Assembly: GCA_025929455.1 (NCBI GenBank)
Contig: JAICMB010000040.1
Location: forward strand, 1-12,521
DNA: 12,521 nt
From: Bryobacteraceae bacterium
GTDB taxonomy: Bacteria > Acidobacteriota > Terriglobia > Bryobacterales > Bryobacteraceae
Direction: 5' to 3'
Of the stretch, positions 2 through 12,319 are shown piece after piece (the first letter of the stretch is position 1; each line of letters opens with the position of its first letter). Both the position numbers and the translations under genes were made by a program. The notes below the pieces were generated by a model. It saw only the letters and a program-made list of their open reading frames with translations. It had not been told where the DNA came from and did not search any database.

Positions 2-487
2 GCGGACTTTGCCGCAGTCGTCGAGGATTTCCGCCGTATGGGGTTGGCGCTCGCGCCCACGTTCATCGCGTTCACGCCGTGGACCACGCGCGAAAGCTAT
101 CGCGAGATGCTGGCGGGAATCGCGGAGCTCGATCTGATCGGCAACGTCGCGCCCGTGCAGCTTGCGCTGCGCCTGCTGATCACAGGCGGCTCGCGGCTGC
201 TCGAGCTTCCTGAGATACAAGGTAGTGTGCAGCCGTTCGATGATGCCGCGCTTGTATATCCGTGGACACATCCGGACCCGCAGATGGACACGCTGGCCGC
301 GCACGCTCTGGCCGCTATGGCGGATGCGAACGATCGCCGCGAGGCATTCGAGGAGGCATGGGCGCTCGCGACGGATGAGCCGCTGCCCGAGAATTTCGAC
401 CTACTCCCGCGCGCGGCAATTCCTTATCTCGATGAGCCCTGGTATTGTTGAGCGGAGCCCACCTCCGGGCAGTTGGCCCGCATCTAG
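2..487 (+). CDS. CUAEP-tail radical SAM selenoprotein, C-terminal part (TGA 449-451 read as Sec)
   Basis: Seen: an open frame runs from the window edge to TGA at 449-451, preceded by TGT (Cys) and followed in frame by GCG GAG CCC (Ala-Glu-Pro). It continues T-S-G-Q-L-A-R-I to TAG at 485-487. Known: a family of radical SAM proteins ends in CUAEP or CCAEP, where U is selenocysteine, and the tail here fits exactly (PWYC-U-AEP). The visible 161 residues are the C-terminal region. The CxxxCxxC iron-sulfur motif would lie upstream, outside the window. 'APTFIAFTPWTT' resembles the last strands of a radical SAM barrel. The remainder is mostly helical with an acidic, proline-rich end. An automated caller would stop this gene at 451 and lose the functional tail. 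The next gene, an ATP-grasp ligase, starts 2 nt after the TAG, so the two are probably co-translated. The substrate is unknown. The Cys-Sec pair suggests redox or metal/sulfur chemistry, which is inference only. Confidence 0.85.
449..451 (+). other. Selenocysteine (UGA) recoding site
   Basis: TGA stands in frame between Cys (TGT 446-448) and Ala-Glu-Pro, giving the CUAEP signature. Twelve further sense codons follow before TAG. A candidate SECIS hairpin lies 15-29 nt downstream. This requires selA/selB/selC/selD elsewhere in the genome, which the window cannot show. Confidence 0.83.
466..480 (+). promoter_or_regulatory. Candidate bacterial SECIS hairpin
   Basis: CGGGC (466-470) pairs perfectly with GCCCG (476-480) around the 5-nt loop AGTTG (471-475). 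The loop opens 19 nt after the TGA and has a G in its first two bases, followed by U. Bacterial SECIS elements recognised by SelB have a small apical loop with a G (often GU) at about this distance from UGA. An alternative hairpin at 453-467 (CGGAG/CTCCG) overlaps it by 2 nt and could compete. The hairpin also lies directly before the start codon of the next gene. Confidence 0.65.
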
Positions 488-489
488 CC

Positions 490-1695
490 ATGAAGAAACG
501 CGTAATGCTGGTCGCCGCGACCACGGGTTATCAAACGCGGTCGTTTCAGCAGGCCGCCGGGCGCGCCGGCATCTCGCTCGCGATGGCGACCGACCGCTGC
601 CACGTGTTGGACGACCCCTGGGGCGATCACGCGCTGCCGATCCGCTTTGACGACAGCGCGGGCGCCGCAGAGGCCGCCATGGTCGCGGGTGAACTCGACG
701 GCATCGTAGCGGTCGGCGATCGAGCGGCAATAACCGCAGCCCACATCGCAAAAACGCGCGCGCTGCGCTTCAGCGCGCCGGACGCGGTTGCTGCCGCCGG
801 GAACAAATATCTTGCGCACGAGCGCTTCCGCGCATCGGGGTTGCTCGTGACCGAGTATTATCGTGTGCCTGTCGAGGACGCGCCGGATGACGCGCGCTTC
901 TATCCGTGTGTGCTGAAGCCTCTCGGCATGTCCGCAAGCCGCGGCGTCATTCGCGCCGACAACTCGCGCGAATTTCGGGTCGCGTTTGCGCGCATCACTG
1001 AACTCATTCACGATACGCAGGGGACCGAACCGTTCATACAGATCGAACGCTATATCCCCGGCCGCGAATTCGCGCTCGAGGGTTTGCTTACGAGTGGCGC
1101 GTTGCGCACGCTGGCCATCTTCGACAAGCCCGACCCGCTCGAAGGACCGTACTTCGAGGAAACGATCTATATCACGCCGTCGCGGGAGACCGCGGCTGTG
1201 CAGCGCGCCATCGGAGAGACCGCCCAGCGCGCCACCCGCGCGCTGGGCTTAAGCGATGGTCCCGTGCACGCCGAAATGCGCGTGAATGAGCAGGGCGTGT
1301 GGATGCTCGAGGTGGCCGCACGCCCCATCGGTGGTCTGTGCGCGCAGGCGCTTCCCGGTCTCGAAGAATTGATCCTGCATCACGCCGCGGGCGATCCGCT
1401 TCCGAGCGAGCCTTTGTTGCGCAGCGCGAGCGGCGTCATGATGATTCCGATCCCTGCCGCCGGAGTCTACGTAGGCGTCGACGGCGTTGACCATGCGCGC
1501 GCGGTCGACTGCATCACCGATGTCGCTATTACCGCCAAAGAAGGACAACGCCTGGTCCCGCTTCCTGAAGGCAACAGCTATCTCGGATTCATCTTCGCGC
1601 GCGCGGAGGACCCCGCCGAGGTCGATCGTGCACTGCGGGAATCGCACGCGCGTCTGCGGTTCGCGATTTCGGCCGCGCTTCCCGTGCTGCGCTAG
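490..1695 (+). CDS. ATP-grasp domain ligase paired with the CUAEP radical SAM gene
   Basis: This is a 401-aa ATP-grasp enzyme. The family activates a carboxylate as an acylphosphate with ATP and joins it to an amine or other nucleophile. Seen: N-terminal Rossmann-like pre-ATP-grasp domain (about 1-100); ATP-grasp core with the nucleotide-binding Lys at about 143 (VLKPLGMSASRGV, Gly/Ser-rich loop); EFALEGLL at about 193-200; metal-binding acidic residues in HAEMRV (E262) and LEVAARPIGG (E274, R278); then a C-terminal LAL-like domain (about 310-401). This layout resembles L-amino-acid ligase and carbamoyl-phosphate-synthase-like ATP-grasp proteins. The start ATG at 490 was chosen over an upstream TTG at 445 because MKKRVMLVAATTG is a natural N-terminus and because the upstream frame ends at 487 once UGA is recoded. 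No clear Shine-Dalgarno is visible, so translation is probably coupled to the gene before. The exact substrate cannot be named. Confidence 0.88.
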   Translation: MKKRVMLVAATTGYQTRSFQQAAGRAGISLAMATDRCHVLDDPWGDHALPIRFDDSAGAAEAAMVAGELDGIVAVGDRAAITAAHIAKTRALRFSAPDAVAAAGNKYLAHERFRASGLLVTEYYRVPVEDAPDDARFYPCVLKPLGMSASRGVIRADNSREFRVAFARITELIHDTQGTEPFIQIERYIPGREFALEGLLTSGALRTLAIFDKPDPLEGPYFEETIYITPSRETAAVQRAIGETAQRATRALGLSDGPVHAEMRVNEQGVWMLEVAARPIGGLCAQALPGLEELILHHAAGDPLPSEPLLRSASGVMMIPIPAAGVYVGVDGVDHARAVDCITDVAITAKEGQRLVPLPEGNSYLGFIFARAEDPAEVDRALRESHARLRFAISAALPVLR

Positions 1696-1731: not shown

Positions 1732-3453
1732 ATGCGTTGGAGCAAACTCTTCATCCCCACATTGCGCGAAAACCCCGCTGAAGCCGAGGTGGTCAGCCAC
1801 CAACTCCTGCTGCGCGCCGGCTACATCCGCCAGCTTGCAGCGGGCATTTACAGCTACTTGTATCTCGCGCAACGGACACTGCTGAAAATTGAGCAGATCG
1901 TGCGCGAAGAGATGAACGCGATCGGGGCGCAGGAGTTTTATCTGCCCGCGCTCAACCCCGCCGAACTGTGGCAGGAATCCGGCCGCTGGGACATCATGGG
2001 CGACAACATGTTCCGGCTGAAGGACCGCTTCGGGCGGCCGCTCGCCCTCGCGATGACGCACGAAGAAGTCATGACCTCCATCGCGCGCGGCGAGCTGCGC
2101 AGCTACAAACAACTCCCGCAGATCTGGTATCAAATTCAGACTAAATTCCGCGACGAGCCGCGTCCCAAGTCGGGCCTGTTGCGCGTGCGCCAGTTCCTCA
2201 TGAAGGACGCCTATTCGTTCGACCTCACGCCCACCGGTCTCGACGAGAGCTACGACAAACACTACAGCGCGTATTGCAAAATCTTCGACCGCTGCGGTCT
2301 GGAGTATATCGTGGTCGAAGCGCATTCGGGCGCCATGGGCGGCAGCCAGTCGCACGAATTCATGGTGAAGTCCGACGCCGGCGAAGACTACGTCGTGCGC
2401 TGCACCGAGTGCGATTACTCGGCCAATCTCGAAAAGGCGGTAACGCGCGCTTCCGCGCCCGCGCAAACCGACGCGGACAGCAGTGCGCAGCGGGAGGAGA
2501 TTCACACGCCCGGCAAAAAAACCATTGCTGAAGTGGCGGAGTTCCTTGGCGCGCCGGAAACATCACTCATCAAAAGCCTTGTCATGGTCGCCGATGGCAA
2601 GCCGCTGCTCGTTCTGCTGCGGGGCGATCATCAGCTCAGCGAAACCAAGCTGAGCGCGATTGGAGGGGCACAGAACGCCCGGCCGGCGCATCCCGAAGAG
2701 ATACGCGAATGGTTCGGCGCCGAAGCCGGCTCACTCGGTCCCGTGGACGTGCGGGGCATGCGCACCGTCGCCGACGAGAGCCTGCGCGAGCGCCGCAACA
2801 TGATCGCCGGAGCGAACAAGGACGATTACCATCTGAAGTACGTCACGCCGGGCCGCGATTTCGCAGCCGAGTATCTGGACCTTCGACAGGCTCAGGAAGG
2901 CGACGCCTGCGCGAACTGCGGCGCGGCGGTCGAGCTGGTCAAAACCGTCGAGATCGGACACATTTTCAAGCTTGGCTACAAGTACTCGGACTCCATGGGG
3001 CTTCGCGTTCTCAACGAAGCCGGTGAAGAAGTGACGGTCATCATGGGCTCCTACGGCATCGGTATCGAACGCATTCTGAGCGCCGCCATCGAACTCTATC
3101 ACGACAAAGATGGCATGGCGCTGCCACACACCATCGCGCCGTTCACGGTCGTGGTCACTCCCGTCAACTACGCGGATGCCGAGCAACGCAAAATTGCTGA
3201 GGATATCTACAATTCGTGCCGCGACGCCTGTATTGATACGCTGATCGACGATCGCGACGAACGTCCCGGCGTGAAGTTCAAAGACGCGGACCTGATCGGC
3301 ATTCCGTACCGTATTACGGTCGGCAAAAAGGCTGCGCGCGGGATCGTGGAGGTCGTCGAGCGCAAGTCGAGACAGACTGTCGAAGTGGAAGCGGCGAATG
3401 CGGCGTCCTATGTGATCGATAAGATCAACGCCGGTGTGCCGCCGGGCGTATGA
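1732..3453 (+). CDS. proS: Proline--tRNA ligase, bacterial type with editing domain
   Basis: Cytoplasmic class II aminoacyl-tRNA synthetase that charges tRNA-Pro with proline. The 573 aa match the usual bacterial-type length. Seen: [15 protein letters not shown] at the N-terminus; catalytic core with THEE at about 109-112; motif 2 [21 protein letters not shown] at about 139-159; motif 3 [11 protein letters not shown] at about 439-449. A YbaK-like editing insertion at about 255-385 clears mischarged Ala-tRNA-Pro; it includes KSLVM and the [12 protein letters not shown] stretch. Cys pairs at about 224/227 and 393/396 flank the insertion, as in many bacterial ProRS. The C-terminal anticodon-binding domain has [20 protein letters not shown] at about 506-525. 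The ATG start is 36 nt after the ATP-grasp stop, with no clear Shine-Dalgarno. A TACACT at 1717-1722 could be a weak -10. The stop overlaps the next start as ATGA. It looks intact. Confidence 0.97.
2880..2896 (+). repeat. 17-nt REP-like imperfect palindrome inside proS
   Basis: CCTTCGACAGGCTCAGG is identical to the short imperfect palindrome (CCTGAGCCTGTCGAAGG on the other strand) that recurs as a dispersed repeat in many bacterial genomes. Here it is in frame inside proS and encodes part of DLRQAQEG, just after the editing domain. That peptide fits the family, so chance coding identity is possible. Only one copy was noticed in this window. Confidence 0.4.
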
Positions 3454-4562
3454 GCGCGCCCGATTGGAAAGCCGTTCGCGCGGAATTTCCCGCGCTGCGC
3501 GATTGGACGCACCTCAACACCGCAACCTACGGCCAACTGCCGCGGCGTGCGACTGAGGCCGTGGCGCGATTCTTTGCGCACCGCGATGAGCTGGCGTGCG
3601 CGGATTTTCTGCGCTGGTTCGACGACATGGACCGCTTGCGCGGCAAGATCGCGCGCTTGATCCATTGCGAAGCGGAGGACGTTGCGTTCGTTCCAAACGC
3701 ATCCACCGCGCTCGGAGTTTTGCTCGCCGGCATCGATTGGAAACAATACGATAATGCCATCACGCTCTCGGACGAGTTTCCTAACAATGTGTACGCGCCG
3801 TTGCGCCTGCAGCGGCTCGGGGTCGATTTCATTCAAGTCAGCGGCGACAACCTCCTCGAAGTTGTCAACGAGCATACCCGCCTGGTCCTCGTCAGCATGC
3901 TTAACTACACCACTGGCTTTCGCGCGCGGCTCGACGAGATCGGTCCGCTGTTGCGCGAACGCGGCGTGCTGCTCTATGTCGACGGCACGCAAGGACTTGG
4001 GCCGCTAACGTTCGATTCCGCGCGCGTGCGGCCCGCCATGCTCGCCGCACATGGATACAAATGGATGCTCGCGCCCACGGGCGCGGGCTTCATGTACGTC
4101 GACCCCGAGTTGCGACGCCGTCTCGAGCCGCTCACGGTCGGCTGGCGAAGCCACCGTGACTGGCGCCGCGTGGACAACCTGCATCACGACAATCCGCAAC
4201 TGTCCGACGCCGCGGAACGTTACGAAGGCGGCATGCTGCCGTTCGCCCTGCTTTATGCGATGGAAGCGTCGCTCGACTTCATATTCGAAATAGGCGTGGA
4301 GGCCGTCACGCGCCGCACGTGCGAACTTGCCGCGCTCGTTCGCGACGCCGTGCACCGCCTTGGCGGCGAAGCGCTGTTTGATGACACGCCGATCATCGCC
4401 GCGAGATTCGAAGGCCGCGATCCCTCCATCCTTGCCGGTGCGCTTGAACAGCAGCATATTCTCGTAGCTGCGCGCCACGGTTGCCTGCGCATCTCGCCGT
4501 ATTTCTATAACGACGAAAGCGATATTGCGCGGTTTGAATCCGAGCTAAAACGGCTCCTCTAA
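3450..4562 (+). CDS. Aminotransferase class V (PLP-dependent, NifS/isopenicillin-epimerase-like fold)
   Basis: A 370-aa fold-type I PLP enzyme of the class V group, which includes cysteine desulfurases, kynureninase-like and epimerase-like members. Seen: [12 protein letters not shown] at about 21-32 (N-terminal substrate-site region); [12 protein letters not shown] at about 81-92 (phosphate-binding helix); [10 protein letters not shown] at about 177-186, with the cofactor-binding Asp178 and Gln181; [17 protein letters not shown] at about 201-217, with K204 the likely Schiff-base lysine; and RYEGGMLPF at about 257-265, typical of the class. No cysteine-bearing mobile loop typical of IscS/SufS is apparent, so a true cysteine desulfurase or selenocysteine lyase role is not supported. 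The start ATG overlaps the proS stop by 4 nt (ATGA), so it is translationally coupled to proS. Its 3' end overlaps the opposing gene by 4 nt. Substrate unknown. Confidence 0.88.
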
Positions 4563-11481: not shown

Positions 11482-11835
11482 ATGGCCAAGAAACGCGCGC
11501 TGATTACCGGAATAACGGGACAGGACGGCTCCTACCTGGCGGAGTTATTGCTTGACAAGGATTATTAGGTGCACGGGCTGGTGCGCCGGGTGGCGCTGGA
11601 AGATCCAAGCCACCGGCTTTCGCGCGCCGCCGATCTGGCCGACCGCGTTCAATTTCACGCCGGATCGCTCGAAAGCTTACCCAGTATTTTCAAGGTATTT
11701 GCGACGGTGGAGCCGCACGAGTGCTATCACCTGGCGGCACAAAGCTTCGTGAGTTACTCGTTTGAAGACGAGTTTTCGACGTTGAACACCAACATCAACG
11801 GCACCCACTTTGTGCTGGCCGCGATGAAAGCGGTC
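11482..11835 (+). pseudogene. gmd: GDP-mannose 4,6-dehydratase, broken (TAG at codon 29, 3' end lost)
   Basis: The intact enzyme converts GDP-mannose to GDP-4-keto-6-deoxymannose, precursor of GDP-fucose and GDP-rhamnose for surface glycans, and is usually about 320-370 aa. Seen: [20 protein letters not shown] (NAD(P) motif GxxGxxG), then LLDKDY, then an in-frame TAG (11566-11568) exactly where family members have Glu in 'GYEVHG'. The same frame goes on with VHGLVRR, FHAGSL, ECYHLAAQSFVSYSF and NTNINGTHFVLAAMKAV, all in family order. Similarity stops at about 11835, before the SSEMFG/YxxxK catalytic region, so there is no active site. After that the frame is antisense to a lacI remnant. Two independent lesions mark it as dead. 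Its place beside the glycosyltransferases suggests it once supplied their sugar donor. Confidence 0.85.
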
Positions 11836-12225
11836 GATCAGGTGGGAGCCCATCTCGGAGGTCATGACGGCGACGCCGTCCACTTTGCGCTCCAGCATGC
11901 GCTGCACGCAGACTTCGGTGCGTTCGGGGCTGTAGCCGGTATTGGCGACGATGACTTCGTATCCGTTGCGAACGGCCATATCTTCGAAAGACTTGACCAG
12001 TTCGGGGAAGAACGGGTTCGTGATGTCGGAGATGATGAGGCCGTACATGCGGCTGCGTCCGGAACCAAGCGCGCGGGCGTTTGTGTTGGGGTAATAACCG
12101 AGCGCCTCGATGGCGCGGCGCACGCGTTCGGCGGTCTTCGGCGCCACTTTGTTGGAACCATTGATGGTGCGGGATACCGTGGCGGTAGAGACCCGCGCCC
12201 GATCTGCGACGGCCTGGATGTTCAT
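11677..12225 (-). CDS. LacI-family transcriptional regulator, 3'-truncated remnant
   Basis: LacI/GalR repressors bind operators through an N-terminal helix-turn-helix and sense a sugar through a periplasmic-binding-protein-like core; full length is about 330-350 aa. Seen: MNIQAVADRARVSTATVSRT (HTH, 1-20), INGSNKVAPKTAERV and GYYPNTNARAL (hinge region, to about 53), then core start YGLIISDITNPFFPELVKSF at about 61-80 and KVDGVAVMTSE at about 114-124. Similarity ends at about residue 133 (near 11827). The remaining roughly 50 codons to the stop at 11677 are the reverse complement of gmd and have no LacI character. So the DNA-binding part is whole but most of the ligand and dimer core is missing. 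Start ATG 12225 was chosen over 12309 because the HTH begins at the N-terminus in this family and GGGGG lies just upstream. Divergent galT is the likely former target. Probably non-functional. Confidence 0.8.
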   Translation of the reverse strand: MNIQAVADRARVSTATVSRTINGSNKVAPKTAERVRRAIEALGYYPNTNARALGSGRSRMYGLIISDITNPFFPELVKSFEDMAVRNGYEVIVANTGYSPERTEVCVQRMLERKVDGVAVMTSEMGSHLIDRFHRGQHKVGAVDVGVQRRKLVFKRVTHEALCRQVIALVRLHRRKYLENTG

Positions 12226-12319
12226 TTGCCCCCGGGCGGCGTCCGGATGCGAGATAAGGCCGGACAATCCGCGATTCAGACAGAGGATAACCTGCCGCGT
12301 GCAATTCAAGTTATTGTGA

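Follow-up and report, generated by a model that had tools for sequence, protein, structure and literature searches.

Radical S-adenosylmethionine (SAM) enzymes containing the rare amino acid selenocysteine (Sec) that are in print include a TIGR04167 member and TrsS (NF045646), both given in a table of a 2026 review of prokaryotic selenoproteins (PMC13188914); they resemble the protein considered here in combining radical SAM with Sec, but belong to different families. Its closest named family is instead that of ArsL (NF040542), of which the Burkholderia gladioli enzyme has been proposed to attach a 3-amino-3-carboxypropyl group, taken from SAM, to As(III) (PMC8552651). The family to which our protein appears to belong, NCBIfam NF040546, carries the name 'CUAEP/CCAEP-tail radical SAM (seleno)protein'. 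A literature search for CUAEP or CCAEP found no mention, and NF040546 does not occur in the available part of the 2026 review; the two Haft papers cited there could describe it. Here we analyze a stretch of 12,521 nucleotides from Bryobacteraceae bacterium (contig JAICMB010000040.1 of GCA_025929455.1; hereafter the window), which begins within a gene that is, by its sequence, a new member of this already named family and continues into a gene for an ATP-grasp enzyme. To the family name we add covariation of a selenocysteine insertion sequence (SECIS), association with selB, a near-perfect pairing with the ATP-grasp gene, and a comparison with ArsL centered on Cys265.

A radical SAM gene with an in-frame UGA at the contig end

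The reading frame at the left end of the window is open from base 2, which places the start of the gene upstream of the contig. At positions 446-487 we read TGT TGA GCG GAG CCC, then ACC TCC GGG CAG TTG GCC CGC ATC and TAG, precisely the in-frame UGA, eight sense codons and stop that an initial annotation, made from the letters alone, had described. Translation of UGA as Sec (U) gives a 161-residue product with the C-terminus DEPWYC-U-AEPTSGQLARI, whereas ordinary calling of open reading frames ends the gene at 451, as that annotation had anticipated. The CUAEP/CCAEP radical SAM family that it named was borne out by a match to NF040546 that extends through the tail (E 9e-46, profile positions 299-467 of 468). 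With two thirds of the protein missing beyond the contig end, the 161 residues score only 156.5 bits against a curated cut-off of 500 bits, which they cannot attain, a point that counts against the assignment. Equal pieces of two relatives score 161.6 (L001) and 156.9 bits (L003), and full-length relatives exceed the cut-off with 625 (L001), 614 and 692 bits. Truncation of the fragment ahead of the TGA lowers its score to 136.5 bits, indicating that the codons from TGA onward hold 20 bits of family signal. In sequence and tail the window copy is like other members of NF040546, with no difference seen; it is truncated by the contig end. A phylogenetic tree groups it with L004, L016 and L055 (Bryobacteraceae/Acidobacteriia) at a support of only 81 and with 32% of columns filled. 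A search of plasmid DNA with the window gave no match, and an Rfam scan of the window returned nothing at gathering scores.

Conservation of the UGA codon and of the tail

A protein search found 313 relatives, and 28 among the 120 listed were aligned with the window protein. Scanning species genomes with this alignment yielded at least 597 pattern matches, of which 572 were confirmed and the best 80 loci kept; together with the window these form 81 rows (four loci, L031, L052, L054 and L068, were read separately from the other 76). The codon at the UGA site is TGA in 65 rows and TGC in the other 16, so that the in-frame UGA aligns with Cys in homologs, as expected of a bacterial selenoprotein. 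The initial annotation had also asked whether close homologs end at the Cys with no conserved AEP downstream; instead, AE directly follows the Sec/Cys codon in 81/81 rows and AEP in 80/81, with AEA in L072. Six Cys or Sec positions are invariant in all 74 aligned full-length relatives: the three cysteines of CxxxCxxC, whose region lies off the window, Cys265, Cys438 and Sec/Cys439. In a phylogeny from which the tail was excluded, Sec and Cys replace one another 12 times, and 7-8 of these switches are forced by well-supported branches. From this conservation we infer that the Cys-Sec pair is the functional end of the enzyme.

The initial annotation had called the selenoprotein unannotated. This does not hold for the family, since NF040546 is named and public records carry the name, but it does hold for the recoded tail in at least one such record. 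In a plasmid of Thermomicrobium roseum, the coding sequence (CDS) named as a CUAEP/CCAEP-tail protein (L081:4935-6371) closes at the Cys preceding the TGA, and the U-AEP and a hairpin-like repeat lie past its annotated end; a public record of a named family is thus still truncated at UGA. In the metagenome-assembled genome (MAG) JANXRE01, a Sec-form copy (L009:10457-10459) and a Cys-form copy (L061:1183-1185) occur on separate contigs.

A SECIS-like hairpin downstream of the UGA

Bacterial Sec insertion depends on a hairpin close to the UGA, and in the window a stem of five pairs starts 14 nt past that codon (12-14 nt across rows). At least five consecutive pairs in this fixed register were found in 62 of the 65 TGA rows, the exceptions being L023, L026 and L076, compared with one of the 16 Cys rows. 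When synonymous codons were shuffled among rows (1000 trials), a mean of 38.8 and a maximum of 49 of the 65 rows retained a hairpin. In a covariation alignment of 64 TGA rows (L019 excluded), 91.8% of cells were paired, against 80.7% after shuffling and 44-59% when the register was slid, and the covariation score was 0.378 against 0.175 for shuffled rows; none of 500 shuffles reached either value. The one Cys row with a hairpin (L027:4333-4368, 6 pairs) comes from a genome without an over-cut-off selB or a strong tRNA-Sec match; this hairpin looks like a fossil SECIS, and the locus likely represents a recent Sec-to-Cys change.

Single-sequence folding was also considered as evidence for a SECIS and failed for the window, so only comparison among relatives counts as such evidence.

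Selenium machinery in the genomes of relatives

The initial annotation had named a lack of selB and selC as evidence against Sec. We searched 50 genomes out of the 80 from relatives (34 Sec-form and 16 Cys-form) for selB and tRNA-Sec and found each in most of them. Genome G009 was tallied as Cys-form (L061) despite its additional Sec-form copy (L009). At Rfam's own cut-off, RF01852 was passed by 47/50 genomes but also by 5/14 controls; the crowd of matches at or below 55 bits, under the clear matches of at least 60 bits, probably represents other long-armed tRNAs. Since the Rfam cut-off was uninformative, a 60-bit threshold for tRNA-Sec was set in this analysis. With it, selB above cut-off was present in 29/34 Sec-form and 11/16 Cys-form genomes (p 0.16), a tRNA-Sec match of at least 60 bits in 30/34 and 10/16 (p 0.04), and one or the other in 33/34 and 11/16 (p 0.01), where the p values are from one-sided Fisher tests that ignore kinship among genomes and are not true probabilities. 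Neither selB nor tRNA-Sec was found in the Sec-form genome G050 (L070).

A wider sample of 247 Acidobacteriota genomes, requested at a completeness of at least 90%, contained NF040546 matches at E up to 1e-60 in 40 genomes, 39 of them above cut-off. A single TGA falls inside the match in 29 of the 40, its position within the match not being displayed (G242 also has a TAG). Of the genomes that carry the radical SAM gene, 37 of 40 also have selB, as do 28 of the 29 TGA-form genomes (all but G147), compared with 123 of the 207 genomes without the gene.

Several observations weigh against Sec insertion at this UGA. selB alone fails to separate Sec-form from Cys-form genomes among the 50 surveyed, and it is present in 5/7 full-length Cys-form Acidobacteriota genomes. 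Two of five covariation measures do not beat shuffling, namely pairs with changes on both sides (3 against 2.9) and pair types (9 against 9.0). The 16 Cys rows are 51.0% paired against 40.9% when shuffled, above nearly all shuffles, which means that some hairpin signal is left in them. Finally, when the window sequence is folded from the UGA on, another structure is favored over the hairpin (-12.8 against -8.8 kcal/mol); the hairpin then has a pair probability of about 0.1, and it dominates only if the first 15 nt are omitted. Nevertheless, the TGA/TGC exchange, the conserved AE, the tie of the hairpin to TGA rows and its covariation uphold the selenoprotein proposed in the initial annotation, and Sec at this UGA is well supported by comparison, the selB association included.

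An ATP-grasp gene accompanies the radical SAM gene

An ATP-grasp gene starts at 490, two bases past the TAG. Its product scores above cut-off for both ATP-grasp_4 (104.4 bits, cut-off 27) and LAL_C2 (61.6 bits, cut-off 29.4), a domain pair that likens it to the ATP-grasp ligases BL00235 (an L-amino acid ligase), BacD and DdaF; BL00235 is its best solved sequence relative (E 1.5e-25). It lies far under the cut-offs of the named NCBIfam models and, unlike these ligases, is tied to a radical SAM gene.

Among the 72 of 81 loci with at least 1400 bases downstream, 33 have the ATP-grasp gene as the next gene downstream in the same orientation and 13 have it elsewhere in the stretch, and none was seen in 26. 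For 21 genomes without a nearby copy (18 of the none-seen group and three whose contig was too short), a single copy at 46-64% identity was present elsewhere in 19; G044 has a copy at 29% identity and G050 none. In the Acidobacteriota sample, the ATP-grasp gene (E up to 1e-50, weakest 9e-88) occurs in 41/247 genomes: each of the 40 that carry the radical SAM gene, and additionally G066, which has no match of the NF040546 family. Of 201 Chloroflexota genomes, 58 have the radical SAM gene (56 above cut-off, 25 with TGA), and the ATP-grasp gene (E up to 1e-40; the best hit of a genome was at weakest 2e-79) occurs in 72, comprising all 58 and 14 others. The ATP-grasp gene thus occurs without the radical SAM gene in 1/207 Acidobacteriota and 14/143 Chloroflexota genomes, and for both phyla pooled it is present in 98/98 genomes that have the radical SAM gene, compared with 15/350 that do not; Fisher p values for this co-occurrence are not true probabilities, because the genomes are related. 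The 15 genomes in which it stands alone count against a strict pairing; the 14 from Chloroflexota have no NF040546 match above cut-off. Because gene order varies and contigs differ, the co-occurrence points to a functional tie, and the ATP-grasp enzyme looks like an obligate partner of the radical SAM protein. A literature search for radical SAM with ATP-grasp and selenoprotein found no paper on this tie.

One ATP-grasp-containing genome, G330, retains a relic tail (HLSEAWYCCAEPSDEQ, L087:1465-1674) without the radical SAM part, a stretch that looks like a decayed gene.

Relationship to ArsL

For the full-length relative L001, ArsL scores 276 bits and the next named family 53, and three full-length relatives score 276, 254 and 266 bits and the window fragment 61.2 bits against the ArsL cut-off of 450 bits. 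The two families are similar in length and share FGDPDFFN/FIDADFFN and PTFIxFxPW blocks and a C-terminal vicinal Cys pair. In all three ArsL proteins compared, the CC of the RCCLKC tail aligns on CU, although only this vicinal pair aligns between RCCLKC and the YCUAEP of the window. ArsL differs from the CUAEP family in lacking Sec and Cys265 (V, V and L occupy this position in the three proteins compared), in having a third tail Cys, and in having about 40 fewer residues before the tail. As(III) favors three thiol or selenol ligands, and each family could, judging by these alignments, offer three. A literature search for RCCLKC gave zero occurrences. In an AlphaFold model of L001 (predicted local distance difference test, pLDDT, 94.3), order in the tail extends as far as residue 440, with mean pLDDT of 85 for residues 431-440 and 52 beyond.

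The surroundings of ArsL were examined in three neighborhoods out of 16 RCCLKC/ArsL plasmid matches. In all three, ArsL lies amid ars genes, which is not the case for the window gene on its visible, downstream side, and two contain an ATP-grasp gene. These are the Priestia and Alicyclobacillus plasmid clusters, in which it lies past a carboxymuconolactone decarboxylase gene (L082:1741-2964, L083:1436-2668); arsinothricin-like products of these clusters may be further ligated.

Several findings speak against extending ArsL chemistry to the CUAEP family. The kinship is deep, with a branch of 1.57 on each side and 30-35% identity, and the ATP-grasp proteins encoded near ArsL share only 24-29% identity with that of the window, so that by sequence they appear to be a parallel to the window partner and not its orthologs. 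No arsenic family was among the 25 listed of 82 families in the 112 of 143 nearest neighbors that were scanned, and no ars gene was among the scanned proteins of the window, which covers the downstream side only. In addition, the closest solved folds, AprD4, MgmA, OxsB, CysS and TsrM, carry out other chemistry.

Other genes of the window and its neighborhood

The features of the window are collected in Table 1. Further genes scanned encode glycosyltransferases, a methyltransferase and a LacI-type regulator. Of the 80 loci, L013 from a Bryobacteraceae MAG was alone in having matches to both proS (73% identity) and the aminotransferase gene (53%), which lie beside the radical SAM gene there too; this makes a Bryobacterales member of Acidobacteriota the probable host. 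A Fe(2+)-trafficking protein (PF04362) is encoded nearby in 30/81 stretches (e.g., L005:11745-12077), all 30 of which have the ATP-grasp gene, and this family accounts for 15 of the 112 scanned neighbors. NifU and Fe-S_biosyn domains were each found in four neighbors, probably as one upstream gene in L030, L033, L071 and L077. At window positions 11569-12309, what appears by translation to be the middle part of a sugar-nucleotide dehydratase/epimerase on the + strand runs into the LacI-type regulator on the - strand. The best profile match of the regulator ends near 11806, and its last ~40 residues resemble the antisense of this epimerase-like gene, possibly because the DNA was rearranged, or sequences were joined in assembly, around 11800-11840.

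Table 1. Positions of features in the window.
Feature	Position	Strand	Basis
C-terminal 161 residues of predicted CUAEP-tail radical SAM selenoprotein (NF040546)	2..487	+	Family profile; 5' part beyond contig end
Cys-Sec-Ala-Glu-Pro tail motif (CUAEP)	446..460	+	Tail reading and alignment of relatives
In-frame UGA, read as Sec	449..451	+	TGA/TGC 65/16 among 81 rows
Bacterial SECIS-like hairpin, CGGGC-AGTTG-GCCCG, 5 pairs	466..480	+	Fixed register in relatives, covariation
UAG, presumed true stop	485..487	+	Two bases ahead of next ATG
ATP-grasp protein with L-amino-acid-ligase C-terminal domain	490..1695	+	PF13535, PF18603; apparent partner
proS	1732-3453		Profile scan
Class-V aminotransferase	3450-4562		Profile scan

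A proposed pathway and its alternatives

The SECIS-like hairpin 14 nt downstream almost certainly lets SelB insert Sec at the UGA, which would give the protein a C-terminal Cys-Sec pair, and the co-occurrence of the two genes makes it very probable that the selenoprotein and the adjoining ATP-grasp ligase act in one pathway. As the likeliest chemistry we propose, by analogy with ArsL, that the radical SAM selenoprotein would cleave SAM to a 3-amino-3-carboxypropyl radical, that this radical would be coupled with a nucleophile or soft atom bound by the Cys-Sec pair, possibly together with Cys265, to give an unusual amino acid, and that the ATP-grasp enzyme would then link this product to a second amino acid or an amine. 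Such aminocarboxypropyl chemistry followed by ligation is conceivable, although we would not call it probable, and the explanation as a whole, from selenoprotein through partner to ArsL-like chemistry, is put forward tentatively.

The same selenoprotein and partner might instead rely on 5'-deoxyadenosyl radical chemistry, with Cys-Sec serving as a redox or hydrogen-donor tail. We regard this as a real but doubtful possibility, given how far ArsL leads all other named families in sequence kinship (for L001, 276 bits against 53). The Cys-Sec pair and Cys265 might also ligate a metal or an auxiliary iron-sulfur cluster, with carrier proteins rebuilding it as in sulfur-inserting radical SAM enzymes. 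Such a role would suit the three extra invariant Cys/Sec positions, the NifU, Fe-S_biosyn and PF04362 genes near these loci, and the presence of MiaB and RimO among the fold neighbors, but PF04362 accompanies the ATP-grasp gene in every stretch where it occurs and may be mere synteny, and Cys265 is missing from the three ArsL proteins; we consider an auxiliary cluster unlikely.

The two remaining alternatives concern the tail itself. If UGA were a plain stop, the similarity downstream would be untranslated or reached by rare read-through, and the T. roseum CDS and three of the 28 aligned homologs (P0001, P0010 and P0080) do finish at the Cys. However, gene callers yield a CDS ending at Cys either way, AE is kept throughout, including in the 16 TGC rows that are translated on without recoding, the hairpin is tied to TGA, and selB is associated with the gene. 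A plain stop was rejected in view of tail conservation, the hairpin and selB, and we give it hardly any weight. RimK modifies a ribosomal protein, and the ATP-grasp enzyme might similarly modify the C-terminal tail of its radical SAM partner rather than a small product. The near-perfect pairing, the conserved tail and the retention in G330 of the ATP-grasp gene with a relic tail alone would fit such a role, but the G330 stretch resembles a decayed gene and in 13 of the 14 Chloroflexota genomes that have ATP-grasp alone, a search for the tail pattern with no mismatch allowed found nothing. For the latter reason, modification of the tail was largely rejected, and we consider it quite improbable.

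The preferred explanation, a Sec-containing, ArsL-like enzyme followed by an ATP-grasp ligase, can be extended one speculative step. Acidobacteriota and Chloroflexota may share a hitherto unrecognized two-enzyme pathway in which an amino acid with a bond between carbon and a soft element (arsenic, selenium or another) would be built on a Cys-Sec-Cys site and sealed into a peptide or amide, as a selenoenzyme counterpart of arsinothricin synthesis; we think this unlikely as it stands. The family, present in 40/247 Acidobacteriota and 58/201 Chloroflexota genomes, has had only a name. Since Sec is costly to make and the family is widespread, these bacteria should benefit greatly from the product of the enzyme. 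The ATP-grasp partner, the kinship with ArsL and the three extra thiol/selenol positions now lead to a focused question, namely whether 5'-methylthioadenosine or 5'-deoxyadenosine arises from SAM and what the ATP-grasp enzyme ligates.
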